Shown in pieces: positions 5,546 to 58,639 of a stretch of 64,000 nt of DNA. The notes beneath the pieces were generated by a model. It did not search any database, was not told the origin of the DNA, and worked only from the letters and a program-made list of their open reading frames with translations. Each line of letters opens with the position of its first letter. Position 1 is the first letter of the stretch. A program made the position numbers and the translations under genes. The DNA comes from Phytoseiulus persimilis (Eukaryota; Arthropoda; Arachnida; Mesostigmata; Phytoseiidae), in contig CM075101.1 of assembly GCA_037576195.1 (NCBI GenBank), forward strand, positions 46,004,001 through 46,068,000, read 5' to 3'.

Positions 5546-6059
5546 TGGCTACCCGATGGTCTACGAACTCATCTCTGGCGCCATCATCCATGAAGCGATC
5601 ACAAAACCCTCTCTTTAATCGCTCATATGAGCCTCATGAAATCGCTCGTGCCTATGGAGAAGCACGGAAAGACAGACCTGATTTTTCTTCCGGAACGTGC
5701 GCGTTGTATGATTGACAGACCGAAAATGTATGGGATCGGCGCGCATAATTTATTATTTTCGAGTCGCTCGAGTCGTGAAACTAAATCGAGTCGAACGAAG
5801 TTCTGATCCAATACAATTTCGCCTCGAGTTCTCAGTGGCCTTGCTAGATCGCTTTGTAGTCGAAGGCTTTCGGAACGATGAAGATGTCGTCTAAAGTCGA
5901 CTGCCTCAGTCGTGTGGGATTTTTGCCGATGACAAAGTTCAACAGGCTGAACGCTCCACATCTTGTGGAAGCTGCTAGAGACCAAGCTGCTAGACAAGGG
6001 GGCGTTGGTCTATAATACTGAGAACAAGCCGTCAGTTGCCAGGCTCCCCAACAGACGGG

Positions 6060-7521: not shown

Positions 7522-10500
7522 ATGAATGATCGCGAGGACAAACTAGCCCTGTCAGACGATCAGCGAGGGACTTTTCCGCTGCAAGATCCGCCGCTAGAAT
7601 CGGCCAACACGTCAGATCATCATCAGGTGAGTGGTCTGCTCCGCGCAATCACAGCCGCACAGTTCGCTCCTCGGCTGTGAGCACGCGCTGCCGTCAACAA
7701 GCCCTTGAAATTCATACTTGCGTTGGGGGAGGGGGGGTGGACATGTCGATGATTAAACCCTCATGGTCATGAAGATTACGAAATCCCTGCATCAAACAGG
7801 CGTTCATTGTTCGACCTGTGAGGACGAATAGGGCGTGTGGCAAGATCGATATCTCGGCGATAGAAATGGAGATAAAAGTCAAGGTAGAGACAGTCGAATA
7901 TATTGGATTCGAATATGAGCAGACGAGGACCAAAAGAGCTGACAAAGTCGCCAGCAGCCTCCAAAATAGGCCTACAAGTGATGAAACTCCCCCCGAGGCA
8001 AGCGAACCCGATACAGCGGGGGCTGATGAAGGGACAACCGAGCAACAATCTCAGAACGAAATCAGTCGGAAACCCCGATTTCCGTATCCGAGTTCTGATT
8101 CCGCGGCATCATTCTGATGAAGTTGACCACTCAGAGCAATCGTCGCTACCTAGAATCGTTATTCGATCCGTGTGTCGGGGTGCGGAGAGTGGAGTTTCAT
8201 GAATCTGCTGCTGGCCTCGGCGCCTGCCATTGTGACAGCTTTCGGAAGCATTCATGTCATTGGGATCGAGGAGTACAAGCGCGTTGAAATTCCGTAGGAT
8301 GCCATTTGAAATTTTATTCGCTGTCTCCCGATGGCCTCGTGGAAATGGCCTCGTCCCCTGCGTAGCGCGAGTTTCATTCCGCGGATTGCACGGTGATTGT
8401 GATCGACGCCAGCAGTTGCTCGTATGGAATGCGAATCGGGCGAACGTTTCCAAAGCGTAAGCGCCAGGCCCGATCGCTTTGGTAAAGGGTCGACCCAGCC
8501 CCAACACTCTGACCGACGACCGGAGAATCAACCCCTGAGATAGTGAAGTCCAAGCCTGCGGATTCGTGGAATTCCTATAATTATGGTTCCAAAAGTAGGG
8601 AAGATATTCTGCGGACAACTTCGATATCACAAGGTTGGCATACGGGGATGTGCTTCATTCTGAAGCGGACTTAGCGCTCAAGATAGCGAAGATACGCCGA
8701 CGAAAATCGGCGTTTGTGGTGCTTACCACTCGCCATCACGTCCCCCAGGCCATCCCGTCAGGCTCCATAGAGATCCTCGGTAAGCCCCTCACGTGCAGAG
8801 ATATCTACGTTTGAGATGGAGCTCGTTCGATTCGTTGACCGTCAGATCTCTCAGCAAATCAATTTTATTTCGAACAAGCACCCGCCATCCCTTGGGAACT
8901 CTACGACGGGCAGATACGTCGATTCCGTCAACTCCGATCGGTCCGATTCGTTTCAGGACATCTACGATGGAGCAGTGGACAATGAGGCTGATGATCCGGA
9001 AGAGGAAGCCCGGGTGGAAGCGTACCAGTCGCAGCCCTTTTTCCGGAGATACTTACTCGAGTGCATCTTGTTCCTCTACACTCTTGGAACGAACCTTTAT
9101 TTGACTCCTTTGGGCACCTTGATAAGTGTGAAAATATGCGTCTATAACTATCACCACGAGCAGGAATTGTGCGATCACTTGGAAAACGCCACTGAAAGCA
9201 TAAAGAACCCTATTCTGGATGATGCTCAATTATATGGCTTCATCAACGACGCCGTGATCAACGTTCCCGGTTGGTCGATCTTGCATGAAAACCTCGGTTC
9301 AGAGTTTGCAGGACTCATTCACCGGTCCTTCATTCTAGCTGGCCAGAGATTGAGATTTTGAAGAAGGAATACGAATTTCCAGGGGCCTTGGCTGCATTGA
9401 TATCAGGGAATTACGTCACCAGATATGGCTTCCGCACGCCCCTTGTTGTCACACTGGTCGGAGCTGTCGTCTCGTGCTTGTGCCAATTCGTCACTGTCCT
9501 TGTGATGCCGGCGCCTGTCTACATGAATACCCTCGCGGAACTACCGGGAGCGATAACGGGTTTGTTGCGCCTATACACTTGATGACAGCATATTAATTTC
9601 CACCAACCACCACAATTAAATACCCTAATTTCCAAGTGGAGCCTTCGGCAATCGTATTTCCAGGTGGCAGCGTTCTGATGCTGACAGCTACTTACTCTTA
9701 CATCGCATTGCGAGTTCCTCATTCGCTCCACCTGCAGCGAATCATGCTGGTCGGCGTCTTCTCGGGAATCGGTCTCTTGATCGGTGTTCTCACCGGGGGA
9801 GCGCTCGCAACCTGGATCGGCTATACGTGGCTCTGGATTATCTGCTTAGCGTTTGTCATTTCTACGGCCGTTGCCGTCTTCTGCTGTTTCGAAGATATTG
9901 GTCAGAATCTCCGGTTTCTTTCAGTGGGTTCCTAACCGTGATTCTCGGCGGCAAACTGACCCTGTATTTTGAACTTACAGAGACTCCACCGGAGCACAAG
10001 AACGATACCTGGGGAGACGCCCTGTGGGTCAGCGCAAAAACAGGCTTCAGTACCGCTCTCGCTATACTTACGGTTGAGAGACCACAACGGAAACGCAAGC
10101 AGATGATTGCGATTCTGGGTTGTTTCATCAGCGCGTTTTTCGGCTTGGCAGCTGGCAGTAAGTCCAAATCTCACTTGGAACACCTGATGCAAGTTGTATT
10201 CCGCAGATTCATCAGCGAAAGTTCATAATTCCGCCTCCCCCCGACAGATGGCACTTTTGCCTTTTCTTACGCGAGAAGCGTCCTCAAATTCAATCAGGCC
10301 CAGTACGGGTTGTGGAACGGGGTCGGCCTCGTCCTCGTTTTCGTTCTGTTTTTCCCGCTTCTCGAGATCATCCGCAAACTGAAATTAAGCCATCCCACCG
10401 TCATAGTCGTCGGCTCATTCTGCTTCATGCTAAAGTTCGCCATGCTCAGCCTCACGGAATTCTTCAATTTCCTCTACTACTTACGTAAGATTCTCCACGT

Positions 10501-10938
10501 CCGATTGGCTAACTTCTCCCATTCATTCAGGAACTAATGAGACTCCTATCCTTGCAGAGCTAGTGATCGGCATACCCTTCTACGTGTCGCTAGTTTCTAT
10601 GCGATCATACGCCACTGATCTGTTGGACGTCTCCGATGTGCCCGTAGTGATGGCTCTGTTTGCCGCCATTGAGAAAATTGTTCCCGTGATCAGTGGTGTC
10701 GTCGCCGCTGCTGTCTATCACTTCACGAACACTTCGTATCCGGGCTGCGTTTTTCTCATCATGGCCGTGAATTACATCATTCCAATGGTGTTAGGACTGT
10801 GAGTGAATTCTACGTTATTCTCTGAACGAGAGATGAGGGCACGAAACAGAGCACGTTCTCGACAGTTGCTTCATTTCCAGGTACTGCAGAATCATCCTCA
10901 AGCGTAACAAAGATGATATGCGAAGGAATCTAGCTTGA
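7522..10938 (+). CDS. SLC46-like MFS transporter, array copy 1
   Basis: Likely plasma- or lysosomal-membrane solute carrier of the SLC46 (proton-coupled folate transporter-like) branch of the major facilitator superfamily; substrate not predictable. Exons: 7522-7626, 8957-9269, 9383-9559, 9664-9900, 9981-10157, 10248-10484, 10558-10798, 10881-10938; 514 residues. Exon 1 is a short acidic N-tail (MNDREDKLALSDDQRG...) joined in phase 0. Exon 2 carries the conserved acidic stretch, the QPFFRRY motif, TM1 and two Cys of the first extracellular loop. Exon 3 spans TM2-TM3 with loop motif GNYVTRYGFRTPL, where the usual motif-A Asp is Thr. Exons 4-7 carry the remaining helices, and exon 8 is a short basic tail. 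All donors and acceptors are GT-AG and phases match the other three copies. An alternative start is the Met at 8816, in frame with exon 2, which would replace exon 1. Family call strong, first exon moderate. Confidence 0.9.
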
Positions 10939-12665
10939 ATAGTAGGAGCGGTGACCAGCCTGGAAGAGGGGATGGACGATTATTCCTGAACGGGTGTATG
11001 GTCGCTTTGGGAATACCATTGTTAATCCACTACAGACAAAGCAATCGAAGAATTCTATCGGGCTCCGTATCAGCGAATGATATCCGAAATTACGATCTGT
11101 TCGGGAAATAACATCTTAGAATTGAATTTGCGTTCTCGCTGCCGCAGCGTGATGAATAACTCTGAATCCCCGGATGGGCAGTTCTGGTCCCGCCAGTTAT
11201 GTACCGAGTCAGATATTCGGTTCAGCTCCATGCTCGCCGCATCCATGTATTCATGATTGTTTCAGTGATTATCCGTCGTAGGAGGGCAATGATGTAGGAG
11301 TGCTTGCAGGTTCTGTGAGCAGGAACTTCTCTCACAGTCAGGTTGTTGAAACTGTTGAGCTCGGAGAGCTGCTCGATATCTCTCGGGAGCCGAAGTCGTT
11401 GTTCACTGGACTCCTCACGCCGCCCAATGAAGAATCGTTCAGCGTTTCAGTTGGGTTGCAGGGAAAAAACGTGCGGCAGGGAAGGCGACACGTATTAAAG
11501 GGGATGGCAAGCTCACCCTCGTTCGATAATGGACTTCGTGAGCCGCATGGACCCTGGAGAAAGTTCAATGTTCACAATGGTACTTTTCCGATATCGAGAT
11601 CCCAGAAATGCCATGCACAGGGCTACTTGGGTGAACACGAGAGGATATGGTAAGTCAAAGCGGAGGAAGGGAAAATTCTCACTGAAACCCTGTGACCTTG
11701 GAACATTGAGGGGGACAGGGACTTCTGGAGATTCCGTCCAGCTTTTGTTTGCCAGGAGGCTCCGGCGAACAACTAACTATTCGAAGCCAAGGGCACGAGG
11801 GCCCGCCATACCTTGTTATCCAATACGAACCTCGTTCCTTGGGAATCCATCTCAATCAATCTGGTCGGCAACGGCGGCAATAGCCGACACGGCGGTGGCC
11901 GGAGATAGATGATCACCGGAAACTCATTTCCCGAAACAAGTTCAAGGAGAGCAAAAATAAATCATGCCCTCAGACACCAACTCCTCGCTGAAGAAAAGGC
12001 CGAGCGCCAGTGAACGCGTCGCTCACTGCAACGATCGGAAAACGATTCTCCTTGATCTCACAGTCAAGCCTAGCTTGGATTCGGTACCTAGCTCAGGAAT
12101 GCATGGACAGGCTGACAGATTTTCGTTGGAGCCATGCAATTTTGTTCGAGAAGCGTAGGGTGTCGTGTGCCGCCAGAGAAGCCGGGGAAGCCGTTATCGG
12201 TTTCAAATTGAACAGATTCAAGAAGTCGAAAATTCAGTCCACTGACCCGGTTTCCATTATGTGTTCGTGGCAAAGAGGGAGACCAAGAGATCCACAGCAT
12301 AAAGCTGGATCAATGGGGAGCCAAACTTGATACCGCTTTAGAATCCATACAGCATCAAACTTACCCAAGTAGTGGGTACAACCAAAATGGAAGAGTCTTG
12401 ATGACAAGAAGCAGTCCTGACGATGTTGACCATGGCGAACGTGTTCAGAGCTTGAAACCTTGGGATGGAAAATACATTTCTGCGCGAAAGCATCCCGGGA
12501 AATCTGAGCAATACGGCTTGGGTTGCGTAAGGTATATACGAAGAGATGTAGACGAGATCCTCGAGCTGGAACTGAGGGAAGAATGGCCGGGAAAGCTCCC
12601 GATCGCTAGAGTGGCTTTCGGAATTCGACCCAACGTCGGCCGCGTGTCGGGTGGTCCTAAAGGAG
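10939..12665. other. Gap between SLC46 copy 1 and the minisatellite
   Basis: No exon series recognised. The longest plus-strand frame is 11529-11912 (127 codons), with no domain I recognise. It contains a consensus-like donor (GGATATG followed by GTAAGTC, near 11650), so it could be one exon of an unknown gene, but no partner exon is evident. Confidence 0.45.
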
Positions 12666-12825
12666 GCCATCTCCAGGTTTCAAAAAGTATGCTCAGATTG
12701 TTCCCGGAATCACTCCTTCAGGTTTCGAAAAGTATGGTCAGATTGGTGCCAGGATCACCCCGTCAGGTTCTGGAAAGTGAGGTCAGGTTGGTCCTGGAAT
12801 CACCCCCATATATTCTGGACGGAGT
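12666..12825. repeat. Minisatellite, about 44-bp unit, free-standing
   Basis: Three diverged tandem units built around AAGTATGCTCAGATTG, then TCCCGGAATCACTCC and a CAGGTTT spacer. The same unit is found in both orientations in the loops of the foldback elements at 23856-24760 and 51525-52525, and once at 53205-53262. The units read as an open frame (12398-12838), which explains that ORF. Confidence 0.8.
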
Positions 12826-13009
12826 GAGGACAAAATGACAGACGAAGCCGATCATATATTGTTGGAGATTTCCACTATCACTTCGAATTAAGACTCTCGG
12901 TATCCATGAAGAACCTTGCACCTGTGTGTTTATTCTGTAGAGACTTTGCTTTAACAAGCTTCAAGTGGACAGGGTTATGTGAGCTCTAAAATGACACTCT
13001 GGGCTACGG

Positions 13010-14555
13010 GAAATATATTCCGCATACAGGGTGTGTTCTTTGAGCTGCAACATTTCCTTGGCCCCCATGTTTTGAGCTGTGTTTCAGTCAAATTTTGTCC
13101 GATCTGGGAATTTTTGATCGAACGCTCCTGAAGCGGGGCATCTTTTTGCCTTCCATTTTCAAGAATCAGATCATTGTTGCGTTTCCCAGAGCTCGTCGAA
13201 GCATTCTCGAATTCAATCCATGGCCCCTAAAAGAATCTACCACGGAATAGCGGATTCTCAACCGATTTCGGAAAATGAAGAGAGGAAAAATTCCTCTCGA
13301 TCCCAGCTACCGAACGCTCGCGATCATGCGGTCGGAGAAACGGCATTCGATGCGAGATACCCCTAAATTGAGGCCTCCAGACTAGGTGTCGGAGAAAAAC
13401 CGCCAAGCGGAACCGCGGTTCCCTGCGGTTCCTGGGGGCTACCCGATGGTCTGCGAACTCATCCCTGACGCCATCATCCATGAAGAAAACCCAAAACCTT
13501 CTCTTTAAACGCTCCTATGAGCATCATGAAATCACTCGTGCTTGTGGAAAAGCACGGGAAGGCGTACTCGACTTTCTTCCGAACCGTGCGCATTGTATAA
13601 TTGACTGACCGAAAATTTATGGGATCAGTGCGCTCAATTTATTATTTTCGGGACGCTCGAGTCGTGAAACTAAATCGAGTCGAACGAAGTTCTGATCCAA
13701 TACAATGTTGCCTCAAGTTCTCAGTGGCCTTGCTACATTGCTTTGTAGTCGGAGGCTTTGCGAACGATGGAGATGCCGTCTGAAGTCGACTGCCTCAGTC
13801 GTGTGCGGTGGAGTCCACACCCCCTGCCGACCACTCCCGTGAAGAACCGCTCGTAACCCCTCAGGGGAGCCGATTTCGGGAATTCCACTGATGGTAAAAG
13901 TTTGTCATTTCGAGCCAAACTACCCGGAAACGGAGTGATCGGGTCGATCCGATAACTTTTTTTCCACCTCGAAAGTTCGTGGGCGCTCGTCTCATATCCC
14001 TGCCTGAAAACGCGCCGACAACTCGGCCTCGGCAGCAGAGTGGGGAAAGTCATCGCCGCAAACGGTTCGAACGAAAAACTTTGATTTCCCGCGACTCTTC
14101 AGAGCTGTCATTCGTCGAAGCCGTCATGACCTCTGCTGAGTTGCCGGCGCGTTTTCAGGCAGGGACATGAGGCGAGCGCCCACCAACCCTTGAGGTGAAA
14201 AAAAGTTATCGGATCGACCCGATTGCTTCGTTTCCAGGTAGTTCGTCTCGGAATAAGAAACTTCTGCTACCTGTAAAACTTCCGAAATCGGTTTCTCAGA
14301 GGAGTCACGGGCGGTTCTCCACGGAAGAGGTCGGTTCAGGGGTATCTCGTATTGAATACCGTTCCTCCGATCGCAACCGATTCGCGCGTTCTGTGGCTGG
14401 GATCGAGAGGAATCTTTCCGAGATGCGCCTCCTCAAGAGCTTTCGATCAAAGATTCCCATATCGGACAAAATTTGACCGAAACACAGCTCAAAACACGGA
14501 GGCCACGGAAATGTTGCAGCTTAAAGAACACATCCAGTATATAGTGAGTATCCCG
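13010..14555. mobile_element. Foldback element, family 3, carrying a nested hAT-like copy
   Basis: Long inverted arms. Left-arm sequence at about 13030-13375 (for example GTGTGTTCTTTGAGCTGCAA, then GAGCTGTGTTTCAGTCAAAT) is matched in reverse complement at about 14330-14545. The arm continues at 13835-14015 against 14145-14325, including GATCGGGTCGATCCGATAAC in the left arm. The arms diverge by roughly 10-15% by eye. The left arm is interrupted at about 13370-13826 by a copy of the hAT-like element. No transposase frame. The outer ends are not precise because similarity fades, and no target duplication is clear. A FoldBack or MITE-like non-autonomous element is the simplest reading. Confidence 0.75.
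13383..13808. mobile_element. hAT-like element, copy 2, partial and nested
   Basis: Starts with TAGGTGTCGGAGAAAAACCG followed by CCAAGCGGAACCGCGG, matching the left end of the element at 5365. It then resembles that element's core (about 5552-5930) from GCTACCCGATGGTCT to CTCAGTCGTGTG. The palindromic repeats between terminus and core are deleted and the right end is missing. It sits inside the left arm of the family-3 foldback element, so it inserted after that element existed. Confidence 0.8.
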
Positions 14556-15757: not shown

Positions 15758-15776
15758 CCCCCCCCCCCCCCCCCCC
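15758..15776. repeat. Poly-C tract, 19 C
   Basis: An uninterrupted run of 19 cytosines immediately beyond the stop codon end of the BEL/Pao relic (whose stop is at 15827-15829 on the minus strand). Such runs are replication- and sequencing-unstable, so the exact length is uncertain. Confidence 0.9.
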
Positions 15777-15826
15777 GGAATTCTGTATGGACGACGTCTT
15801 CAGAATTGGAGTCCCGACGTCGAACG

Positions 15827-16545
15827 TCATCGGGAGTGCTCGATTGGGTTGAGGTTTTTGATGGGCCGGTTGAGGATTTGGCCTGTCGCTGTTTCGATTA
15901 TGCGGGATCGTGCACTGGCCGGGTCGACTCCTCCGGGGAGAGCTATCACTCGGCATAACGGCCAGACCGCTCTGCTCGAAGCGGTGTCCTCCAGTAAGCA
16001 GATGTCGCCCAGCTGAAGGGGTCGAACCGCAGTTTTTGCCTGCTTATGAGCTGTCTTCAGGTATTGTAAGTTTTCTCCTTGATATCGTTTCCAGAATGCG
16101 TTCAGGAGGCCTTGTTGGTATTTGTATGGCTACGAGAAGATTAGTTTGTCTTGGCGAGCTTTTGAATTTGGGGTCATTGTTTATTGAGGCAACACCGTTC
16201 CGCCCTGAAATCCGCGAAGCAGATCCAGCGGACTCAGCGCTATCGGCTCATCGGCGTCTGTTGTCCCCGTTGTAACTGGTCTACGGTTAATCGCTAGTTC
16301 AATTCCGCTCAGGATGATTTCCAGATCTCTGAAGTGAGGGATCGAAGTTCGGACGATTCTCCCGAGCGGGCCTTTAACACATTGGACTTCGCGTTCAAAC
16401 CATCCTCCGAACCAGGTTGCCGTTGGGGTGTTGAAACTCCATTTGATGAAGGTATCTGCGAGCATTTTCTTCACTGCTCCGTCCCGAATTTGTTCATACA
16501 TTGCTTTCAGCTCTTTGGGAGCCATCTGGAAGGTAGCCCGTGTGA
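15827..16545 (-). pseudogene. BEL/Pao retrotransposon pol relic: integrase end and DUF5641
   Basis: Read from 16545 downwards. The integrase C-terminal half includes WFGGWFEREVQCVKGPLGRI and ELAINRRPV, typical of BEL/Pao integrases. It runs to a stop at 16181, then in other frames continues as LLNAFWKRYQGENLQYLK (near 16090-16040) and GDICLLEDTASSRAVWPLCR through LNRPIKNLNPIEHSR to a stop at 15827. The last two parts are the DUF5641 domain that ends BEL/Pao polyproteins. At least two frame changes and a premature stop show it is dead. No LTR recognised downstream, only a poly-C tract. Its own RNase H would be expected farther upstream on this strand; instead an RNase H segment lies on the opposite strand. 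Confidence 0.85.
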
Positions 16546-16554
16546 CGAAAGACC

Positions 16555-16770
16555 TGCAAAGAGCGACCAAACAAATATTCATTTTAACCGACGCGAGCCT
16601 TCAGGCTTACGGAGCAGTGGGATATCTACGGGAATTCCGCCAAGATTCAGAGCCGAGGATACACTTCCTTATGGCGAAGTCCAGAGTAGCTCCGGTCAAG
16701 CCAATGACGGTGCATCGCCTACAGCTCCTAGGAGGCCTGATCGGAGCAAGAATGCTGAACGGGAGCCTCC
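16555..16770 (+). pseudogene. BEL/Pao RNase H fragment, opposite orientation
   Basis: A plus-strand frame (within 16428-16883) encodes IFILTDASLQAYGAVGYLRE and later AKSRVAPVKPMTVHRLQLLG followed by LIGARMLN. This matches the BEL/Pao RNase H signature in which an Asp-Ala-Ser motif is followed by SKSRVAP and RLEL motifs; here the conserved Glu of RLEL is Gln. It meets the minus-strand integrase relic at about 16545. The head-to-head layout means either two insertions or an inversion within one. Part of pol only; not functional. Confidence 0.82.
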
Positions 16771-19715
16771 GTTTGCCACACCAACCTTTTCTAGTTTCCA
16801 TGTCGATTACACACTCGAGTCTCTCTCGATTTCGGCTCTCCGATTCTACGTTTCACACGCTGAACGGGTCGGTGGATAGATAAGTTGAGGGTAAGGGACA
16901 AGAATACTATGAAAACAGAAAAACGTAAATATTCCCTGAGAAAACAATGTCCTAGACTTGACAAATGAAACATTCCGTGGATGAAAATATCTCATCGGAC
17001 CTGGTCTGGGTCAGACAGGATTGTTATGAACCCATGATCATCCTTCTGTTTTCGACGAGACTTGCAGGAATATCAGAGCTTGTTTGGGGCTACATAGAGG
17101 CGGATTCACCAGAAGGCTGAAAAGGCTATGGAAGCATGGGCGGCCGCTTACCGGGGGCAGCACATTTTCGAGAAAATGATTCTCCGAAAACGGCAGATTT
17201 TCGTACACAGCAGTTTCACAAGGACAGTGGATCGTCTGGATCATTGAGGTCCACGCCGATTCGCTGACCGACGCCCACACAGAGCCTCAACTTCGAAGCA
17301 TTCCAGATTATCCCTACATCTTGCGAATTCGCGAGTCCACTTCGAGCGGGATTGAACTATTCCCATCCTCCTGAATTTCTTTCAGGTGACAATCAGGCAG
17401 GCTCCTCAATTAGACTTTCTCTCACTTCGCATTTCTTCCCAGAATCTTTCAGATTTCAGGCGTGTCCCCCAATCAGCACTGGGTTGGTATATTCGAGGAA
17501 TCTCACAATTCTGTACTGACACTGCCGTGCGCCAGTCACTGTGCTGTTTGACACATTTTTGAACGAAAGTATGATAGATCCGAAGTCGCCGTGGAATCTT
17601 CGAAAGTGGGGCTCATCTCTGCGGATGTGCGAGACCCGCCCGTCTGTCAGAGTTCGCCGGTCTGATTGAGTTCGCCGTGCTTCAGAAATTTAACAGTAAT
17701 TGGAACGACTCCAAGCCTAAATGTTCGCAACAATGGTGGTGTCCCAGGAATCTGGAGCAAGTAGACTTCAACAGCCTCAGAGACCAAGTATCTGCGCAAA
17801 CCTCGTGAAGTTTCCTTCAGATATTATTCTGAGGCGTTCCGATGAGTGAGTTATAATCGAGCAGCTGACACGGGATGGCGACCCCTGCCCATAAAATTTC
17901 GTCCCGTTTCTCCCACGTACTGGCTCTCCCGGGAACGGGTTATGCTTGAAGAGCGTGCCAGCTCTTGACCGAGTCAAGAAGTCTCGCGTGACCCAGGGAT
18001 CAGTCTCCCTGCCTCAGAACCCCGCTCGTCTCAACGTACCAAAGCTGAGATTTCCGGAAACGGCCTACCATTGCATCTCTGTCCTGCGTCGGACGACGTC
18101 CAAGATTTTTTTTTTTGAAGCCGTTTTCGCCTTACTCCGAACATCCCCTCGTTCATATCCTGGATGGAAAAGCCCCCAGAGACATATCGCAGTTTATCGA
18201 CGCAGCGTATATCGCCGAGTTTTCTCGGTGAGGGGGTCTAGCTGCGATGTACGTGCACGTTCTTCGGGGTCTCAAAGTCGATCGACGCAAATCTCGGCTC
18301 GGAGGAGCAAGTTCTACGCCGGCCGCTTTTTCCCATAAAGCAGCACGACAGGTAATCATGTGACTAGCGATTCGATTCCCCGGTTTGGGTAAATCGGGGT
18401 CTTAGATTCCGAGTCTGTCAGCCGTTCCTTAGATTCAGCTCGTATATTTCTGTCATAACGATTCTGTGGATTTTCGTGATGTTTCTCCGCGAGCCCTCCT
18501 TTCGACTTGGACCCTCCGAGCTTCTTTGAGGGGTTCCGTGGACCGCAGAAAACAGAGAGAAGGAGCTCCCACATGGCAGTGAGAGGTTCGCTCAACTGAG
18601 CGTCACGGCTTGATTCATCGGAGTCCGTCACAGCTCGTGGCCTCAAGGTTTCGCCTCCTAATCGCCTGTGAGTCCACAGCTTACGGTTAATTCCGATGAT
18701 TATCCGTTTCAGCACGTCGCAAAAACAAAGGAGGATTCGAGTGAGGGCACCAATGTTCCATAGAAGAGGGCATGAGATCGCGAGGATTTCATAGAGTTGC
18801 GGTGCAAACTGAATCAGTTTTCCGATAAGTTCAGAAGCGAGTGCAGTGCCGAGCTCGTCGCAGACCGATTCTTCAAACAGGATGAGCGTTTCAATCGAGC
18901 TGAAAAACCGAGCTAGGTCTGAAGAGGATCCAGAGAACATCCCGAACGCTGAAGGAGGAAATGTCAAGAATGGTGCTGTGAAAGTGAGCATCAGTATCTC
19001 CTGACTCTGAGACAACCTTCACGTTCCGAGTTGGGGCAAATATTCTGAGCCGCACAGTGAGATGGAGCGACGAAACTAACTGGGAAGTGCGAAGTCCCAT
19101 CCGCACATTCACAACCGGATCTCGGGGGCGGGTAGGACGGAAACCTCAGCCTTGCCCCGAGGAAATGTGTCACACTGAGGGTTTGTGGCGAGATTCATCC
19201 TCTGCGGAAATTTCCTGGGGCCGGGCTTTCCGCGGCATGATTTCCGCGATTTCATTTCGTGCTTCCATTTCGTGAGCTCGATGGCAGAGCGGATAGGCCC
19301 GGAATCAGGTGAAGAATTCACTCTTAGGTGAACAGCGACCGTTGAGAGCGTCTCGGGTGTGACTGATCCGGGCTCATACCTCGCTTCCAAAATAGATGAT
19401 CTTGGGGAATTCACGGTCAGTGGGGGCAACAAAAAAGACTCACTGCAACTGAGTCGTCTGACTTTGCTGCATTCTCTGTTGCGATTGATCCACTCTCCGT
19501 CTCTGAGCTCAGCTCATGAGAGCGCTCCCCACAGCTTGTTCAAATGCTCCAAAGCTGAACTTTTGGTCTCTCTGGCCCCCGCGCTGCATGGAGTGAGATC
19601 ATGAACGATTAGATCAATCTGCGAGATGATAATTGGAGGAAGTCGCTTGTGGTACAGCGGAACGTACATAGAACTAGGCTTTGCCACCTTCCGCAACGCC
19701 GTGACAGCCAGCAGC
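16771..19715. other. Interval before SLC46 copy 2
   Basis: No exon series linked to a known family. It contains one long minus-strand frame, described separately (18356-19015). A poly-T run lies at 18107-18115. The promoter of SLC46 copy 2 should lie at its right end. Confidence 0.5.
18356..19015 (-). CDS. Unrecognised long open frame, possible exon
   Basis: A 219-codon frame, longer than the neighbouring background. It is hydrophobic at the N-terminus (ILMLTFTAPFLTFPPSAFGM) and again around ALTRILLCFCDVLKRIIIGI, while the C-terminal third is hydrophilic and rich in Ser, Lys and Glu. The pattern could belong to a multi-pass receptor exon, but no signature residue lets me name a family, and no upstream exon is evident. 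A chance frame is quite possible. Confidence 0.2.
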   Translation of the reverse strand: MSQSQEILMLTFTAPFLTFPPSAFGMFSGSSSDLARFFSSIETLILFEESVCDELGTALASELIGKLIQFAPQLYEILAISCPLLWNIGALTRILLCFCDVLKRIIIGINRKLWTHRRLGGETLRPRAVTDSDESSRDAQLSEPLTAMWELLLSVFCGPRNPSKKLGGSKSKGGLAEKHHENPQNRYDRNIRAESKERLTDSESKTPIYPNRGIESLVT

Positions 19716-22288
19716 ATGAATGAGGTTATCAGAGGACTCGAACGTCGGCGAGCGGTGTCAGTAGGGAAACTCGGTCGGAATGAGTATGGAATAGTTTCAT
19801 CAGAGGATTCATGCGAAAAATCACCCACAAGGGTAGAAGCTCTCTACCTAGCAGTATTGGGCAGAACCTAGTCGAGCATCAATGAGCAAGGACTACGCGG
19901 AATATCAGTGAGGAAAGCGCGATTTCATCGTCGAAAAGCCCGCGGGGTGACCATAATTTTCTCTAAGCTTCGGATTTATTTCGCAATGGATGGATCAGAG
20001 CTGGATGCCGATGAGATTCATGACGACGGCGTTTGAACTATTCTAGCGGACTGCTGATGAAGTGGACGATGATGAAGATCCGGAAGAAATAGCGCGGGTC
20101 GAAAAATATCAATCCAGACCCTTCTTCCGGAGATTTTTCCTCGAAAGCATCTTCACACTGTACACCCTCGCGGCAGCTCTCTACGGAGTTCCACTGAACA
20201 CCCTGATGCACGATAAATGCTGCACATACGTGTTCGGTTACAACGCGAGTGTGTGTGAAGAGCTCCACGAGGCGGAAGATGACGTAAAGAATCCTGTTCT
20301 CGCCTATACCAACACCTACAGCACGGTTAGAGATATCGTGCTGAACGTTCCGGGTGAGTCTGCAGAATATCTTCCTCCATTTCACAGAAGCATCTCCGGA
20401 AAAGATCGATAGCCCATCCGTCATCTAGCCTCCAAACGAGGAAGAGTTGGATAATTGTTTGTAAAGGGGGCCCTTGAACAGCGGGACTCGCTGCCGTGAT
20501 TGTTGGAAATTACCTCACTCGATACGGATTTCGAACACCTCTGCTCGTCGTGCTTGCTGGAGGTATCATCACCTGCGTCTGCCAACTCTTGACGGCTCTG
20601 GTTATGCCAGCGCCGCTGATCTTCAACGCGCTCGCAGATATACCAGGATCGATTGCAGGTTTGATTCCTTTCTTAAACGTCCTCCAAATCAACAATGAGA
20701 TTGGAATTCCGGTTCTGAAAGAAATCGTCACTGTCGTGTTCTATCCGCAGGCGGTCCCATCGTAATCACGACGGCGGCCTACACGAATATCGCTTTGCGA
20801 GTACCCCGGTCACTTCATCTCGGCCGGATAACGACGACGAGCCTGTGTGCTGGGGTTGGAACCCTGATCGCAGTCTTCTCCGGGGCGACATTGGCCGAGG
20901 CGTTCGGGATTGAGATACTCCTGGGCCTTTGCATTCTACTTCAGACGACTTCATTCGTTCTGGTGGTGTTGTTCCTCGAAGACATTGGTGAGGGCGGTTC
21001 AGCGAGTCTCGAGAAGGTTCTTACCTTCTGACTGTGTCTCATTGAGTTGTACCCGAAGCTCGGCGGCCCAGCTCGACAACAGCTTCCATTCACCCATTCT
21101 TGAATAACGAATTCCAGATGTTCCCAAGGAGAACAAAAAGGACACGTGGCGTGAATCGCTCTGGCTCAGTCTGAAAAATGGTCTGATCACCTCCATCAGA
21201 GCCGTCTCGCAGAAACGGCCGTTGCGGGGAAGAGCGCAAATAATTTGTGTGATCATTTGTTGCGCTGTGGGCTCCATCGGCATGACAGCCACAAGTAAAT
21301 TCGCTGAGCTTCTCGTATTGGAACAGCGGCGCGATTAACGACTTATCATATGAACGGACATTTCGAATGTGGGGATGCTGGTGGCTCCAGGAGTTCCAGG
21401 AGTGGGCTACAGCCGAATCTCCTTCTCGGCGACCCCCGGCCGGAGTTCCAAATAGTCCCAGGGCTCTATGAGCTTGTTCTCCCGGAGCAATTCCGAATTC
21501 GGGACGTTCGCTCGCATGGGAGCTGCATGTACTCACAAATTGTTGTTCCTTCGACAGCGGGTTCCTTCGCCATCGCATACACGAGGAACGTTATGAGCTA
21601 TGATCCTTCTCAGTTCACCCTGTACAGTGGGGTTTCCATGCTTCTCGCTTTCGCCTTCATTTTCCCCATGATCACGATTTCGAAAAAGCTCAAATGGAGC
21701 CAGCCGGTGATGATAGCCGTAGGGTCAGCTTTCTTCGTATTGAAGCTCGCCATGCTGTCGCTCACAGAGTTCTTCCCCATCTTGTTCTACATACGTGAGT
21801 GATCGACGAACTTCACGAGAGAGTAGCAGACGAACTCGGCTCCTCACAGAATCATCATTCCCAGGAGTTTTTCCAGAAATGGTCGTGGGGGTGCCGTTCG
21901 TCCTCTCTCCCCTATCCATGAGAGCTTACATGACCAGCCTGGTCGAAAACTCGGAGGTCTCTGTGGTCATGGCCTTGGTATCTCTGATCGAGAAGTTCGT
22001 TCCTCTGGTTGGCGGCTTGCTCGGATCTTATATCTACACATTGACCAGCGTATCGTTCCCAGGCTGTTTCTATCTCATTCTCTCCTTCATCAACCTCATC
22101 CCTGTGGGCGCAGGCCTGTGAGTATTTACCGACTAACAGAAATCGAATACTAGCAGCCAATGAGCCGAGGAGACAGATCGAATTCCCACCTTCGGAATCG
22201 TGATGGTATTCGATTCATGTTCCGCAGGTATTGCAGGATGATTCTCAGCTGGAACAAAAAAGACAAGAAAGAATTTACTCACCTTTAG
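19716..22288 (+). CDS. SLC46-like MFS transporter, array copy 2
   Basis: Multi-pass solute carrier of the SLC46 type; substrate unknown. Exons: 19716-19832 (tentative), 20047-20353, 20482-20658, 20751-20987, 21118-21294, 21558-21794, 21877-22117, 22228-22288; 517 residues if exon 1 is right. Exon 2 opens with an acidic run (DEVDDDEDPEE), then QSRPFFRRF and TM1, and has Cys residues in the first loop at CCTYVFGYNASVCEE. Exon 3 has GNYLTRYGFRTPL, lacking the motif-A Asp. The protein ends YCRMILSWNKKDKKEFTHL. Exon 1 is chosen because its Met-initiated frame ends in phase 0 at a GTAGAA donor 214 bp before the exon 2 acceptor; that donor is weak. The Met at 19986 was rejected, since it hits a stop before any usable intron. 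Close to copy 3 in sequence. Confidence 0.88.
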
Positions 22289-23855: not shown

Positions 23856-24760
23856 ATGAAAAGGGCCTGGTGGGATAAGCACCCCTCCATAAAGAGCGAT
23901 TTTCGGAAACTTAAATTGCTCATATCTCGGGAACCAGGGGAGCTACGGTGCCAATAAAAAAAAACGTTGTGAAACTCTTTTCAAAGGCTATCGGACGCCG
24001 TACGCAGCGGGTCCCGGGAACCACTCTTCTAGTCGAGGAAAATGAAAAAGTTGGTTGGTTCACCCGGAAGGAGAAGGCCGACCACTCTCTCAGATATCGC
24101 GAAAAGTACTGCTATCCATCGTCTACTCGCAGGGCAAGTTTCATCCCGATGCGAGTTTGCGGGGCCGAGATATCAACAGTTTAACATCGGCGATGAAGCG
24201 GTTTTTCCCCAGAACTCGCTTGAAACCCAGCATAAAAATGGATAGAAGTCATCGAATCAAGCCATCTTTCTGGAAATCATGGTCAGATCGATCCGAATCC
24301 CCCTCCCAGACTCGTAAAAGTATGCTAAGATTGGTCCCAGGACCACCCTTCCCGACTTGGAAAAGTGTGCTCAGAAATCGTCCCGAAATCACCGCGATCG
24401 ACCCCCAGAAGTATGGTCAGTGAGTCAGTATGGTCAGGGACCAATCTGAGCATACTTTTCCGAGTCTGGGAGGGGTGTTTCCGGGATCGATCTGGGGGAA
24501 ACCCGCTCCACCGCCGATGTTCAACTGTTGATATCTCGGCCCCGCAAACTCGCATCGGAATGAAACTTGCCCTGCGAGTAGACGATGGACAGGAGTACTT
24601 TTAGCGATATCTGAGAAAGTGGTCAGCCTTCTCCTTCCGGGTGAACCAACCAACTTTTTCATTTTCCTCGACTAGAAAACTAGGGACCCTCCTACGTTCG
24701 ATAGCCCTTGAAAAGAGCTCCACAACGGTTTCTATTATCGGCGCATCTTTGCTTGACAAT
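23856..24760. mobile_element. Foldback element, family 2, copy 1
   Basis: Left end AAAAGGGCCTGGTGGGATAA matches the left end of the copy at 51525. Inverted arms: the sequence around 24040-24190, including GCAAGTTTCATCCCGATGCG, is repeated in reverse complement at about 24510-24690. The arms include AAGTTGGTTGGTTCACCCGG and its complement. The loop (about 24290-24490) holds minisatellite units of about 44 bp in both orientations. No transposase. The right end is degraded compared with copy 2. Frames here, including identical-looking products from both strands, are artefacts of the inverted arms. Confidence 0.82.
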
Positions 24761-33200: not shown

Positions 33201-36200
33201 AAATGACCGCCTCGATATCCCCTATCCTTCTTCTTCATGATTTTCGGAAAAATTCCCAGGACAGGAAATGTTATGGCCAAAACAAGATCGGGCTCGAAAA
33301 TTTCCGACTGAAAAAGCCGCCCTTTATGTGCGCCTTATCGTAGGGTCCTTGTCTCAATTTGTCTGTACAGACGACGATTCATTTCCAGTATGGTTTCGGG
33401 GATACCTTTCCCCTCCAGAACCTCCCAATAACAAGTTCTGTCAATTCTAACATACGAACGCGTGTTATCCGGGACGCAGGTCACTAGTCCGGTTTTCCCC
33501 GCCTAGCAGCCTCTTGATTTCTGTGGTATACAGGGATAGGGGTTGTCAACGAGCGATTTTCACCCAGCAGGGGACATGTCAATTCGGTCATCCAAACAGC
33601 CTTCCGCTGCGTTCCCGATTCCTGCAAGAGGGTTTATACTGTGGACGACGACGTGAAAAGATTCCATGGTTCATGGGTGTTCTGGCATTTTACAGAAAAC
33701 CTCCACTGATTCGGCAGATGAGGAAGATCCCAGGGAAGCTGCGCGCGTAGCCGGATACCAATCAAGACCATTCTTCCGGAGATATTTCCTGGAATGCATC
33801 TTGGCGCTGTACACGGTCGCAACGGTTCTATATTATGTGCCCGTCAACACGGTGATGAACGACAAAAGCTGTCTGTACGTATATGGTTACAACAGAAGCC
33901 TCTGCGCAGAACTACAGAACGCCAGGGATGATGTGAAGAATCCTGTACTAGCCTACACCAACGCCTACAGTACATTCAGAGATTGTGTCATAAACATTCC
34001 TGGTGAGTCTTTTATGATGAATTAAAAATCCGAAAAATGATTCTTCACAGCGATCGGCTCTCCCAGAGTTTCGATTCATCACAAGCTTGATTTCGAGACG
34101 CGTTTCTCTCTCATCTTTCGTTGAGCGCCCCAAGGAGCCTTTGTTGAAAGCCCCTCGTCCAACGAGGTGCGTTAAATGAGCCGCTCTCGATCAAAGGGCG
34201 AGGGTTGACATCGGCGGCAGCTACATGCCGCAACGTTCGTATTGGAATCGAGCATTGCATCGACCCGCAATCTCTCACTCAGCCGCCCGCTCGAGAACAC
34301 GTGTTGGGCGCAGTCGATGTACTGTACTCAAAATGCACTCCACGAGGCGGAAGGCTCATCCTTCGGCGGCTACCGCTCGAGCCAATCGCTGGCTCGTGAC
34401 GAGCAGCCGATCCGACTGGTTCGACTTTCTCGGAGCTCGGAGCTCGGATCACGGTCTGCAGGAGAATCATGCTCTATCAGACCCATGAGATCAGGAATAA
34501 CGGCGCACTGCAAGGGATCTTCCGTGAGGAGAAGACTCCAGGCATTGCCGTCACGGAAAGAGCTGATGTTAGAAGAAATCAGTGGATGTAATGCGACTGT
34601 CCTTGAGAATCCGGCGTCGAGATGTTTCCTGACCCCAACTACAGAGTGGCGAGCAAAACTGGTCCCCTACACTAAGAAACTCGCTGTAACGATGTTTGTT
34701 CTCAAGGGAAAATTTAGGTATTTCATGCTAATCTGTTCGAATACGCCTTGTCACTCCGCGATCTCGTTGCACTGGACAAGTTTCGCAAACCCAATCGTTT
34801 CCGTACCGTGGGGTCATTTCATATCATTCCGAACGATATTTAGGAAGCCCAAACTATGATATTTCCTTCGATCGGAACGAAGAAGCTCGAAAAAAAACGG
34901 CAAGCAAAGCTTCGATTCAGGGGGACTCGCTGCAATCGTGGCTGGGAATTATCTCACCCGCTATGGGTTCCGAACACCCCTGATAGCCACACTCGCTGGA
35001 GGTACGATAGCCTGCATCTGCCAACTCCTGACGGTTCTGATAATGCCGACGCCAGTGGTCTTCAACGCACTCGCCGAGTTGCCAGGATCGATCCCAGGTA
35101 TTATTTTTTCCCCGAGAACCTGAGTTTTAACCGAAAAAGTGGATTCATTCATGAGTCGATCGGAACGGGATTGTTTTCTTCACAGGGGGACCGATTGTCA
35201 TTATGACCGCGGTTTACACGAATATCGCTTTCCGCGTGCCTCAGCCACTTCAGCTCCACCGGATAACAGTGACGAGTTTCGTCAACGGGGTCTCCGCTCT
35301 CATCGCCATTTTCTCCGGAGCGAAGTTGGCCGAAGTGTTCGGCATGGAAATCCTCATGATCTTTTGCGCGACGCTGCTGATGATTTCCACTGTTGTGGTG
35401 ATTTTTCTCCTCGAGGATATCGGTGAGACATAGCGGTCCAGCGAACGGCATCTTATGATCTCACAAAGTGGGGCCGGCCAAGGGGTTCACAATCCAATTA
35501 GAAATTGATTTCCAGATGTTCCTGAGAAAAATAAGGAAGACACTTGGTGTGAGTCGCTCTGGCTCAGTTTGAGGGATGGTCTCAAAACGTCGATCAACGC
35601 TGTTTCTCAAAAACGGCCCGAAAGGAAGAGGACACAGATAATTTGTGTGCTGATTTGTCTCGCATCGACTTGCAACGGCATTCCTGCAACAAGTGAGCCG
35701 GATGAGATATCCAAGATAGATCGGTACTTGATGAGCTCATGTAGACACTTCATTCCTCGCGTCTTCGGCAGGTAACGGCTTCGCCATCGCGTACACCAGG
35801 AGCGTCATGGATTACGATCCTTTCGAATTTACTTTATACAGCGGGGCTACCATGGTACTTGCGTTTGCGTGCCTGTTCCCGATGGTCGCTCTTTCGAAGA
35901 AGCTCAAATTGAGTCCGCCGGTGTTGATCGCTGGAGGATCGATATCCTTCTTGCTGAGGCTCGTTTCACTGGCGCTGACCGAGTTCTTCCGCCCTCTCTT
36001 CTACCTACGTGAGTACCCGACAATTCTCCCTAGCGGACCATCAAAGATCTCAGTTCTCCGCAGCATCAAAATATGTGAGGAAATTTCCAGAAATTATCCT
36101 GGGAACCCCCTACGTCATTGCGCCGCTGTCCATAATCAACTACCTCACCAGCCTCGTCGACAAATCCGAAGTCTCCGTGGTCATGGCTTTGTCGTCTCTT

Positions 36201-36474
36201 ATAGAAAAGTTCGTTCCTTTGGCGACGGGGTCGCTGGGTTCATATGTCTACAAGTTAACCAGCGACTCGTTTCCGGGCTGTTTTTACCTCATCCTCGCCT
36301 TCGTATACTTGATTCCCATCGGACTGAGCCTGTGAGTAGATTTTGTATTGGGCGAGTGAGAAGGCTGAACCCGTTTGGACCGAATTGTGGAATCTGAAAT
36401 CAAATTTTCACAGGTACTGCCGAATGATTCTGAGCTGGAACGAAAGACAGAAACAGGAAATGACTCACTTGTGA
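30291..36474 (+). CDS. SLC46-like MFS transporter, array copy 3
   Basis: SLC46-type transporter; substrate unknown. Exons: 30291-30386, 33696-34002, 34921-35097, 35186-35422, 35516-35692, 35772-36008, 36091-36331, 36414-36474; 510 residues. Exon 1 (SEMESHHVPDVKKESFLMTS... ending in DVDRKNE, then GTAGGC donor) is acidic, in phase 0 and resembles the first exons of the other copies in character. Alternative Met at 30309. Intron 1 is 3.3 kb because it holds a reverse transcriptase relic split by a foldback element. Exon 2 starts KTSTDSADEEDPREAARV after TTTTACAG, followed by QSRPFFRRYFLE. Exon 3 has GNYLTRYGFRTPL; intron 2 is 918 bp, the longest intron 2 of the four. Tail YCRMILSWNERQKQEMTHL. 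Closest to copy 2. The distant exon 1 needs transcript proof. Confidence 0.88.
30516..30532. repeat. Poly-C tract, 17 C
   Basis: An uninterrupted run of 17 cytosines 130 bp into intron 1 of SLC46 copy 3. It could fold on the G-rich strand; the length is likely variable. Confidence 0.9.
31859..33465 (-). pseudogene. Non-LTR reverse transcriptase relic, split by a foldback element
   Basis: Read downwards from 33465: IDRTCYWEVLEGKGIPETIL and EMNRRLYRQIETRT (palm/fingers region before motif B). Then, across the inserted element, SEMFPSGKGLKHGCPMS (motif B region, normally GCPLSP), LFIPYISDLRKRLEQTK, and FADDRMLMAQSIRKHGKAI (motif C, FADD). Several stops and frame changes show decay. The element at 32363-33324 interrupts it; joining the two flanks keeps the frame through KAHISEMFPSGKG. 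Clade not resolvable by eye. It lies antisense in intron 1 of SLC46 copy 3. Confidence 0.8.
32363..33324. mobile_element. Foldback element, family 1, copy 1
   Basis: A 962-bp element with long inverted arms (about 32363-32735 against 33000-33324). Outer ends carry GTCGAGAATTTTCGAGCCCG on the left and, in reverse complement, GTCGGAAATTTTCGAGCCCG on the right. The arms also share GTTGGACGCGCGAAAGGAA. It is flanked by TATG on both sides (32359-32362 and 33325-33328), a probable 4-bp target duplication, and removal leaves a continuous reverse transcriptase frame at the join. No transposase. Superfamily not assigned: 4-bp duplications occur in several superfamilies and the site is not TTAA. Confidence 0.85.
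34242..34859 (+). other. Open frame inside intron 2 of SLC46 copy 3
   Basis: A 205-codon frame that lies wholly within the 918-bp intron 2 of copy 3, starting ATGGAATCGAGC-like near 34242 and ending 60 bp before exon 3. Composition is Ser- and Arg-rich at first, then hydrophobic near the end. No domain recognised. It may be chance; intron 2 is about 95-130 bp in the other copies, so this DNA is an insertion specific to copy 3. Confidence 0.25.
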
Positions 36475-39400: not shown

Positions 39401-40859
39401 TCGAGTCTCGATTGACATCATCTTTTCGACCCCATGGTGAGCCGCCTGTCCCGTGGTCAATAGTATCCCGCTATTAGTCCCCGCGAGACTCACTAATGCT
39501 TATGAGAATCAAAGTTCGGGAATATTCTCGGTGTGCGAGTGTTTCAATGCAGATTAACCTGAAGGCTACAATCATTTTCCAATGTTTCTCGCGTATGGCG
39601 CACCTGGAGCACAATAAATCCGAAGTAGGGAGATGGACCGAAAAAGTGTCAGTTACGAATGCTCTCACCTGGTTCAGTCGAAAAATAGAGCCATTCACCC
39701 TTCCTTTCAGGAATGCTCGGAAGACGTGGGCCTGGTCTGCCTCCAAGATCCGAGCTTGACTCATCAAAATAGAATCTGAGCTTTCTGAAACATTGGAGCC
39801 ACGAACATTTCCAGAACAGCTCGATGACATGTGCGCATGATACGAGAAAACACCCTACACGAATACCATACACCATTCGAGCTCACCATATCGAGTACGG
39901 AAGCCTGATCACCTCCCGACTGATACTCCGTGAGTCGAATGCAAACTCTACTCCGTTTTGGTTCCAAGATAGCCAGAATAATCCGAGATATTGGAGATGA
40001 GAACTCGCATTGTCTGTACTGGCGGATATTTTATTGTCCCTCTCCAATCATCTGAGCGGAATCACTCAGGGAAGTCCTTGTAGGAGTTCCATTACGATGA
40101 AGGTTTCTCCGAGCTGATGGGAGAGATCAATGGAGGTGGAGAGATGACAGGTCTCTTCTTCGCCAGCGTTGTCAACACTATCAGGGGAGCCGTGACCCGC
40201 CGCTGTTCACATATCCGGAATGAGGGAGTCAGGAACACACTCATGGCTAGTTAGCTGGCTATCTCTCATGCAAGATTACTTGATAGAGAGAGATCTCGTC
40301 GAAGCAGCTGGAATTCTCCTCATCTTTGTGCCCATGCTTGAAGTCAGCCCCTCAGCTCCAGAACTGATCTCCCCGGGGCCGTGTTAGAAGTGGATTCTTC
40401 TTGAATCATCAAATAAATATCTCCAAGAACGGGGCTCGGGCCTGAAATACGATTCAGGTGATTGTAATCAACTTCGTATCTCCATTCCAGTTGTAGTATT
40501 TTTTCGCGTAGACAAGGCTGACGCGAAGAATCAGCGTTCGGCGGAGGTTCGGTCTGGAATCTCTCAGGTCCAAGGAAATTCAGGGAGACCAGTCCGAAGA
40601 ACTCAACGGACTCGCTATCGATCCCGGCGTTTCCTCACTCACCGCTGACGGCGCGGGGAAGGATTCCGGGGAAGAGCTCCCTAATTCCAAGGACCATTTC
40701 GTTCCACGGGATTATTAGACGGCGACGACCGCTTCGAAACGAACAATCACAGCTCCGCATAGGATCGAGTCATTGAATCGTTGAGAAATGGTGACTACTC
40801 CGTGATTAGGGGCAAAAACGCGTTCTGTTACGAGCAATTCAGATTGAGAACTCGTCACA
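36475..40859. other. Gap between SLC46 copies 3 and 4
   Basis: Frames up to 129 codons on both strands, none recognisable. The first few hundred bases should be the 3' UTR of copy 3, and the last few hundred the promoter and 5' UTR of copy 4. AATAAA at 36942-36947 is a possible but distant polyadenylation signal. Confidence 0.5.
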
Positions 40860-43259
40860 ATGGAGTCGGAGGTAGATGTGGATGAAAAATCGCAAGAAAC
40901 GTCCAGGCTGCTCTCGGCGAGCTTCACAAGTTCTCAGGTTCGTTTGGAATTCTCTTTCCAAGTATATTCCTATGGAATTTCCGGGCGCTCTGCGCACTCT
41001 TCATTCAGAGAACTCATAGCCAAACGCTTTGACGAGAGGTTCTGGCTGGTTGAACTTGGTGTTGCCTCATCTTCCAGCGAGCTTCTTTTGGTGGGACTCA
41101 GGGATCCGAAGACGATGTCGAACGATTGGAAGAGAGGCTCCGTGTTGAGAAGTACCATTCGCAGAAGTTCGTCCGCAGATATTTCTTGGAACTGGTTCTT
41201 TTCTTGTACACTCTCGCGACACAGCTGCACCTCGTCCCTCTGATCAGTTTCATGGGAAAAAAGGCTTGTATCAACAACTACCACCTCAATGAAACGTATT
41301 GTGAAAACTTCGAAAACGGCGACGAAATGATAAAAAATTCCATCCTCGCTGACACTCAAGTTTACGGATTGTTCAGGGAAGCCGTCGGGAATATTCCAGG
41401 TGAGTTGATGTGAACAGGCTTTAGGAGCGGAATCGCTCAGATAACCCGGGAGGTGAACTCCCGTTGCTGATCTCGCTTTCTTCTCTCTATGAAGGAGCTA
41501 TAGCTGCCCTGGCGGCAGGGAGATATCTCACTCGGTACGGCTTCAGAGCGCCCCTGATATTGACTCTAATTGGGAGTATTTTGACTTGTATCGCTCAATT
41601 GTACTTCGTGGTGCGGATCTCCACTCCTCTGGTTTGGAATGTCCTGGCCGAACTCCCGGGGTCGATAACGGGTAAGTAGGCTGAAGAGATGTGAGTTCAT
41701 TTTACAAACCGTGGAAGTAGATTTTCCAAATGCTTCACCACATATCGTTCTCAGCAGTATTTTTGTGTAGTCTTTCATTCTATCAAATGATCGCGAACGC
41801 AATCCCACAGGGGGAACTATTATGATGTTGACTGCCGGCTACACCTATGTCGCAGTGATGGTCCCTCACTCCCTCTACATGTATCGGATTACCATGGTCA
41901 GTGTCTTCGTGGGAGTAGCTGTTCTCCTGGCAACCTTCATAGGCGGAGCTCTTGCCACGGCTATTGGAATTGCCGCCCTCGAAGTTTTTTGTGCTGTTCT
42001 TCTCGCGATCCCGACAATCATGGTGATACTTTTCTTCAAAGACATCGGTACGTTCCATGGGACTAAGACTCTCAGCCCCCTTCCTTCTCGACTGGTGAGA
42101 TCATCTTTTCGAGCGAAAATTGTCGAATTCTTCCAGATGTCCCGTCCGTGAACAGAGACGACAGTTGGCGCGAAGCGATATGGGTGAGCCTGAAAGAAGG
42201 TCTCAGAAACGGCGTGACCTCCGTCACGAAAACGCGCCCGGACAGGCGAAGAGAACAGATCACAGCCGTGCTCATCTGTTTCATATGCGCCTACGTTGGG
42301 CTCTCTTTATCACGTGAGTTCCAATAAGCTGATATCTTGCCTTAGAAGGGAGCAACTGCTTCGCGAGAGAATCAGGGGAGAATCCTGAAAGATCGGAGTT
42401 CCAGCTCAGTCCTCATGTCCACAAATGAGCAGAAGGCATTATGAGCATTCTTTGTACCGACAGACAACGACTTCGCTTTCAACTACGCTAGGAGTGTGCT
42501 CAATTTGAATCAAGCGGAGTTCGGAACCCTGAGCGGAATCTCATTAGGTGCCAGCTTTATGTTGGTGATTCCCGGCATACTCATAGTGCAGAAACTGGGA
42601 GTCAGTCACCCGGTCGTCATCGCAGTCGGCTCTGCGTTTTTCGTCGTCAAGTTTGCCTTCTTGACGCTCTCGGAGTTTGCCACGATATTCTACTACACAC
42701 GTGAGTTGATAACTCCAATGCTCCTCAGATTTCATCCAGAATCTGGTTCACATATGTGGCACCATGTTCCGAAGCACGTGGGAGCTCATCATGCTTCAAG
42801 AGCTTGCTTGAACTTTCGAGGGGGAGATTGTAACGGAAGCTCAATATTCTTCCCTAGAACTCGTCGTTGGTTTCCCGTTCTACATATCTTTGATCTCGAT
42901 GCGGGTGTACATAACTGAGCTCCTGGACCTCGAAGATGTTCCAGTCTTCATGGCCTTGCTAGCTTCGATTGAGAAACTGGTCCCTCTTGCCAGTGGTGCG
43001 CTAGCCAGCAGTCTCTTCTATGTAACCAGAGACACTTTCCCTGGCTTTGCTTATCTGATTGTCACAATGGTTTACGTCATTCCAGTCATCCTTGGAGTGT
43101 GAGTTAACCCCTGACTGAGTCGATATCACTCACCGTCTATGTTTGTTTCCAATGGTTCCGTACGTATACAGAGAAGTTTGATAATTGTCTCGAGCTTTTT
43201 CCAGGTACTGTGGATTAATCCTCAAGTGGAACAAGCGAGATGAATACGAGCAACTCTAG
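40860..43259 (+). CDS. SLC46-like MFS transporter, array copy 4
   Basis: SLC46-type transporter, the most compact copy. Exons: 40860-40937, 41102-41399, 41495-41671, 41811-42047, 42137-42313, 42464-42700, 42858-43098, 43205-43259; 499 residues. Exon 1 (MESEVDVDEKSQETSRLLSA...) is acidic, ends CTCAG at a GTTCGT donor in phase 0, and the 164-bp intron makes this the best supported first exon of the array. Exon 2: GSEDDVERLEERLRVEKY, then KFVRRYFLE and TM1, with Cys in the first loop at KKACINNYHLNETYCENF. Exon 3: GRYLTRYGFRAPL. Tail YCGLILKWNKRDEYEQL. It shares loop and TM features more with copy 1 than with copies 2 and 3. Same-strand neighbours point to serial duplication. Confidence 0.93.
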
Positions 43260-58611: not shown

Positions 58612-58639
58612 ACTGTTTCGAGAGGTCTCGGCCGCGAGC

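Follow-up and report, generated by a model that had tools for sequence, protein, structure and literature searches.

A 64,000-nucleotide window of the Phytoseiulus persimilis genome (C1:46004001-46068000, in an assembly of 181 Mb in 127 contigs) carries four homologous groups of exons on the forward strand, at roughly 9-11, 20-22, 34-36 and 41-43 kb, as seen in an all-versus-all BLASTP comparison of the open reading frames of the window. Exon frames from different groups match one another with E-values down to 5e-45, far beyond chance. We placed splice sites from the sequence, using GT-AG introns, and rebuilt a spliced model for each copy. The four genes, here called A to D (Table 1), form an array that runs from the ATG of A at 7522 to the end of the stop codon of D at 43259, and every gene ends in a last exon and stop codon of its own. 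The original prediction for this DNA, a four-copy tandem array of SLC46-like transporters in a single orientation, is confirmed by the rebuilt models as to copy number and orientation. A tblastn search over 264 kb, extending 100 kb to each side of the window, found no fifth copy. The array is probably a tandem family of long standing, which comprises four solute carriers, all probably functional, from the major facilitator superfamily (MFS) and lies on a divergent branch related to SLC46.

Table 1. Coordinates of the array genes and associated features within the 64,000-nucleotide window
Feature	Position	Strand	Remarks
Copy A	7522-10938	+	8 exons, 514 aa; spliced model, open frame
Copy A, exons	7522-7626, 8957-9269, 9383-9559, 9664-9900, 9981-10157, 10248-10484, 10558-10798, 10881-10938	+	
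Altered motif A, exon 3 of copy A	9406-9435	+	G-N-Y-V-T-R-Y-G-F-R
BEL/Pao retrotransposon fragment, A-B spacer	16338-16880	+	Pfam Peptidase_A17, E = 2.4e-16
Copy B, candidate exon 1	18882-18983	+	weak; a mechanical scan of 2.5 kb upstream gave this and one other candidate
Copy B, exons 2-8	20047-22288	+	478 aa; exon 1 without established position
Copy B, exons 2-8 individually	20047-20353, 20482-20658, 20751-20987, 21118-21294, 21558-21794, 21877-22117, 22228-22288	+	
Copy C, exons 2-8	33696-36474	+	478 aa; possible start at in-frame ATG 33666
Copy C, exons 2-8 individually	33696-34002, 34921-35097, 35186-35422, 35516-35692, 35772-36008, 36091-36331, 36414-36474	+	
Copy D	40860-43259	+	8 exons, 499 aa
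Copy D, exons	40860-40937, 41102-41399, 41495-41671, 41811-42047, 42137-42313, 42464-42700, 42858-43098, 43205-43259	+	

Exons 3 to 7 measure 177, 237, 177, 237 and 241 nucleotides (nt) in every copy, and the phases of the introns after exons 2 to 7 are 1, 1, 1, 1, 1 and 2 throughout, both as predicted; also as predicted, exons 2 to 8 are free of stops and frameshifts in all four. The first-choice exon 7 of B is 253 nt long, and its length of 241 nt follows from an acceptor 12 nt further downstream, picked for its similarity to the other copies. Exons 2 and 8 vary (298-313 and 55-61 nt). The four proteins have 464 aligned codons in common, with the sole gap among the last few residues; human and chicken PCFT, at 59% identity, already differ in the length of loop 1.

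Most of this exon plan is found outside the array. Three dispersed genes on C2 (L032, L033 and L034, at 27.12, 27.13 and 21.20 Mb) have the same order of exon blocks at 22-31% protein identity to the array. With the phases imposed, exons 3 to 7 come to 177, 237, 189 or 174, 243 and 241 nt in L032 (the 189-nt version of exon 5 gives a stop at the junction, the 174-nt version does not), to 177, 237, 174, 243 and 241 nt in L033, and to 177, 237, 165, 243 and 241 nt in L034. A phase-free scan, limited to GTR donors, returns 237, 243 and 241 nt for exons 4, 6 and 7 in all three genes, and 177 nt for exon 3 in two of them (L034 gives 181 nt, its 177-nt version requiring a GC donor). That scan leaves exon 5 ambiguous, with best lengths of 189, 161 and 169 nt and an overall range of 161-189 nt. 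Because both scans score candidates against the array exons and so favor like lengths, the departure of exon 6 from 237 nt in all three genes is the more telling result. The lengths of exons 3, 4 and 7 persist down to 22-31% identity, while uniformity of exons 5 and 6 is confined to the array. The exon plan is thus inherited and mostly ancestral, and since exons 3, 4 and 7 are common to three dispersed genes, equal lengths do not point to selection acting on the array. Inherited intron positions, in a helix bundle that tolerates changes of length poorly, would account for them with no special mechanism. An internal duplication behind the 177-237-177-237 series was considered and rejected: exon 3 encodes motif A together with the helix that follows it, exon 5 covers helix 7 and the middle loop before it, and in alignments the two do not appear to be equivalent halves.

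The four genes are old duplicates. Proteins B and C are 67% identical and all other pairs 45-49%. Pairwise codon models give an omega (dN/dS) of 0.167 and a dS of 1.40 for B and C; in the other five pairs dS exceeds 4 and is saturated, so their omega values are not trustworthy. Neutrality (omega = 1) is nevertheless rejected in all six pairs, with twice the log-likelihood difference (2dlnL) at 158-208. On the four-gene tree a one-ratio model gives an omega of 0.132 and rejects omega = 1 throughout (2dlnL 506), and a free-ratio model, with 4 parameters more, brings no significant gain (6.1). On single terminal branches, too, omega = 1 is rejected, with 2dlnL of 13.3 (A), 7.9 (D), 4.9 (B) and 5.9 (C). 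The four gene bodies, exons 2 to 8, are thus under purifying selection: the dN/dS check proposed along with the prediction gives a value far from 1, and disabling changes in these exons occur in no copy. The prediction of an expansion kept under selection stands in this respect, and in the grouping of the four genes as one clade against the other relatives fetched from the genome; its "locked" exon lengths are largely ancestral. The unrooted topology (A,D),(B,C) lies 67 log-likelihood units above the alternatives, and the sister relationship of B and C, which also holds with outgroups, is shown, as are the inherited exon plan and a protein of about 12 helices.

That these are MFS proteins is clear from Pfam, in which all four copies match MFS_1 at E <= 1 (best 1.3e-17, for A, which scores 64.2 bits against a cut-off of 33.4), and from hydropathy, which has 12 peaks in B, C and D and 13 in A, fitting about 12 membrane-spanning helices. 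MFS_1 is the only family Pfam assigns to the array, as with PCFT, although one PCFT also matches Sugar_tr. In NCBIfam the only matches were chance ones and a generic multidrug-transporter model that stayed under its cut-off. The relationship to SLC46 is drawn through an intermediate. A genome search with B matches L035 (C3:32053194-32054435, a single open frame) at E = 9.5e-16, and the sole PDB match of L035 at E <= 1 is PCFT (7bc6, E = 1.5e-18). Array and PCFT, so linked, can be aligned over most of their length at 14-20% identity, a figure that depends on the alignment. In hmmsearch with a profile of the array, human PCFT reaches 11.7 bits and chicken PCFT 11.3, against 2.3 for MdfA, -1.5 for YajR and -7.0 for LacY. 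BLASTP without composition correction gives E-values against human PCFT of 4e-13 for D, 1e-5 for A and 7e-6 for B (2e-5 for B against YajR), and human PCFT as a query of the genome weakly matches exon 7 of L033 (E = 0.044). In small trees from which most animal SLC families are absent, A to D form one clade (FastTree 1.000, IQ-TREE 100) adjoining the C2 genes. The predicted SLC46 likeness therefore fares fairly through the L035 chain, and as a remote likeness: by these comparisons the array would be distant SLC46 kin, supported without being proven. The census of relatives in the genome rests on B and human PCFT as queries; two matches, C3:6362155 and C3:5203218, were not fetched. L035 itself and L036 (at 32.05 and 30.53 Mb of C3) are SLC46-like and 72% identical to each other, and since each is one long open frame they are perhaps intronless, unlike the eight-exon branch.

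A residue on which PCFT depends sets the branch apart. Placements come from a 17-sequence alignment with PCFT and the genome relatives at 14-20% identity, in which motif A is the most secure region and the loops the least. At motif A, exon 3 has the sequence G-N/R-Y-L-T-R-Y-G-F-R in B, C and D; as in A, the consensus GxxxDxxGR(R/K) has T in place of the acid and F in place of the first R. The acid corresponds to D109 of PCFT, which is reported to be irreplaceable there, with G112 and R113 critical too (PMC11929075). At the D109 position the four array proteins have T and L032-L034 have S, N and A, leaving no acid in any of the seven, while D or E occupies it in L035-L040, the remaining six MFS genes retrieved from the genome, in human and chicken PCFT, in YajR and in MdfA. 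At the R113 position the residues are F in all of A to D and M, V and M in L032-L034; outside these seven, F recurs in L040, and K takes its place in L035 and L036. E185, likewise critical in PCFT, is replaced in all seven array and C2 genes, by G or S in A to D. The R376 position holds R in A, B and D and I in C. Like chicken PCFT (SLC46A1, 7bc6), an MFS carrier, all four copies have a long loop 1 with an N-glycosylation sequon and a Cys aligned with C66; unlike it, they have no Cys aligned to C298. Many MFS proteins vary at motif A, so its altered form in the array does not exclude membership of the superfamily. Since the motif-A acid and arginine, and an acid at the E185 position, are missing from all seven genes, PCFT-type symport of folate and protons appears unlikely.

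Not every result favors an old family of four working SLC46-related carriers. PDB searches found no transporter with either the four-sequence profile (E <= 1) or A, B and D singly (E <= 10), the hhalign probability for the array against PCFT is only 17.5, and an hhalign control puts YajR at 28.0, MdfA at 25.6 and LacY at 17.9 beside PCFT at 25.7 and 26.7, with no separation. Copy C reaches only 0.15-0.35 against PCFT in BLASTP and does better with YajR, at 0.004. E185 is replaced also in L035, L036, L039 and L040, so its loss extends beyond this branch, and is retained in L037 and L038. The branch tests for B and C are only moderate, and omega = 1 is not rejected on the internal branch (2.4). 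A six-sequence tree with PCFT roots on the D branch (0.962), whereas trees with the C2 genes pair A with D (0.79 and 0.60 in FastTree, 86 and 89 in IQ-TREE) and root between the two pairs; the root, and with it the way A and D join B and C, shifts with the outgroup. Exon 1 is established in neither B nor C, and neither AATAAA nor ATTAAA occurs in the 500 nt that follow the stop of A, with one present for each of B, C and D. The kinship results just listed, together with the low identity to PCFT and a Pfam match no more specific than MFS_1, would suit some other MFS family that resembles SLC46 through the shared fold only. The chain from the array through L035 to PCFT, the hmmsearch preference for PCFT over the bacterial carriers and the match of human PCFT to a C2 gene all speak for actual kinship, and we regard another family as unlikely. 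That some copies are decaying relics might be argued from the first exons, from the Ile of C at the R376 position, from the hexamer missing after A, and from weak donors in D (GTTCGT after its modeled exon 1) and in A (GTTGGT, GTTTGT and GTCAGA in introns 2-4; its exon 1 is clear). With intact exons 2 to 8 in every copy and neutrality rejected on every terminal branch, decay is improbable, and for several copies it is rejected.

The first exons also bear on whether the array is one transcription unit, in which alternative splicing would join the first exon of A to the second exon of A, B or C, as happens in clustered gene families that share first exons. In its favor, the phase 0 in which exon 1 of A ends suits the reading of exon 2 in every copy. 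A TAG stands in frame immediately 5' of exon 2 of B, which therefore requires an upstream exon, and a scan of the 2.5 kb upstream (ATG to a GTRAG donor in phase 0) gave two weak candidates for B and none for C. That scan, however, is confined to GTRAG donors at this distance and misses even the modeled exon 1 of D. D has a possible first exon of its own, C has an in-frame ATG whose open frame continues into exon 2, and the last exon and stop of each copy also speak for separate genes; a shared first exon is very improbable. Recent duplication or ongoing gene conversion would readily give adjacent same-strand copies with identical lengths of exons 3 to 7. It would not be expected to leave proteins only 45-67% identical with a dS of 1.4 in the closest pair, introns 2-7 with no BLASTN similarity at E 1e-3 in any of six pairs, B and C included, and B-C identity that is even along exons 2-8 (0.62-0.76). 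This explanation is largely refuted and very improbable.

The family would have arisen through repeated unequal crossing-over, and differences in substrate or tissue would explain why its copies were kept. The carriers are predicted to work by alternating access, each on a small organic solute, and would either couple transport through another residue or act as facilitated carriers. A stabilizing role in the outward-open state is ascribed to the motif-A acid of MFS proteins. A bolder and rather doubtful proposal is that a separate carrier branch, with seven or more genes in this genome, dropped the acid while keeping the remaining fold; its gating or coupling would be of a kind not described for SLC46 (uncoupled exchange would be one case), and the four array copies would carry different solutes.

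Transposons in the spacers, also part of the prediction, are represented by the BEL/Pao fragment between A and B. Downstream of the array lies a reverse-transcriptase frame (58590-59816, + strand, 409 aa from stop to stop, RVT_1 E = 1.1e-29), adjoined by a C2H2 zinc-finger stretch (57377-58096, - strand, three matched fingers, zf-C2H2 E = 2.5e-11). Together with the spliced genes, the Pao fragment and the reverse-transcriptase frame are what an animal genome would be expected to contain. Dispersed repeats occur at 5544-5916 and 13434-13805 and at 24027-24677 and 51652-52412, with copies or arms 81-94% alike; some are inverted pairs with a short gap and resemble small non-autonomous transposons. 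Two short tandem arrays of a 45-base unit (12674-12806 and 51999-52100) share related sequence in opposite orientations. Rfam and tRNA scans gave nothing useful for the array, and a viral-contig search gave no match.

Tandem expansions of solute carriers are common. The size of the SLC46 family varies strongly among arthropod groups (P = 8.6e-43; Denecke et al. 2020, PMC7487162), so that an expansion here is not unusual. The passages of that study considered here name no SLC46 array and contain no analysis of exon structure or motif A. No such array appears in the titles and abstract openings of literature dealing with SLC46/PCFT in arthropods (mites and ticks included), with SLC46 in relation to muropeptides, or with a phytoseiid genome, and a record in print may exist.

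The array is mostly ordinary: its genes are well preserved, if placed on a somewhat unusual branch, and as a solute-carrier array it behaves as expected for tandem expansion. The whole SLC46-like branch here, C2 genes included, has lost a residue reported to be irreplaceable in PCFT, and the array genes are still under purifying selection. The branch thus offers natural variants for testing the role of motif A, and it advises caution in annotation: similarity alone should not name such genes "folate transporters."

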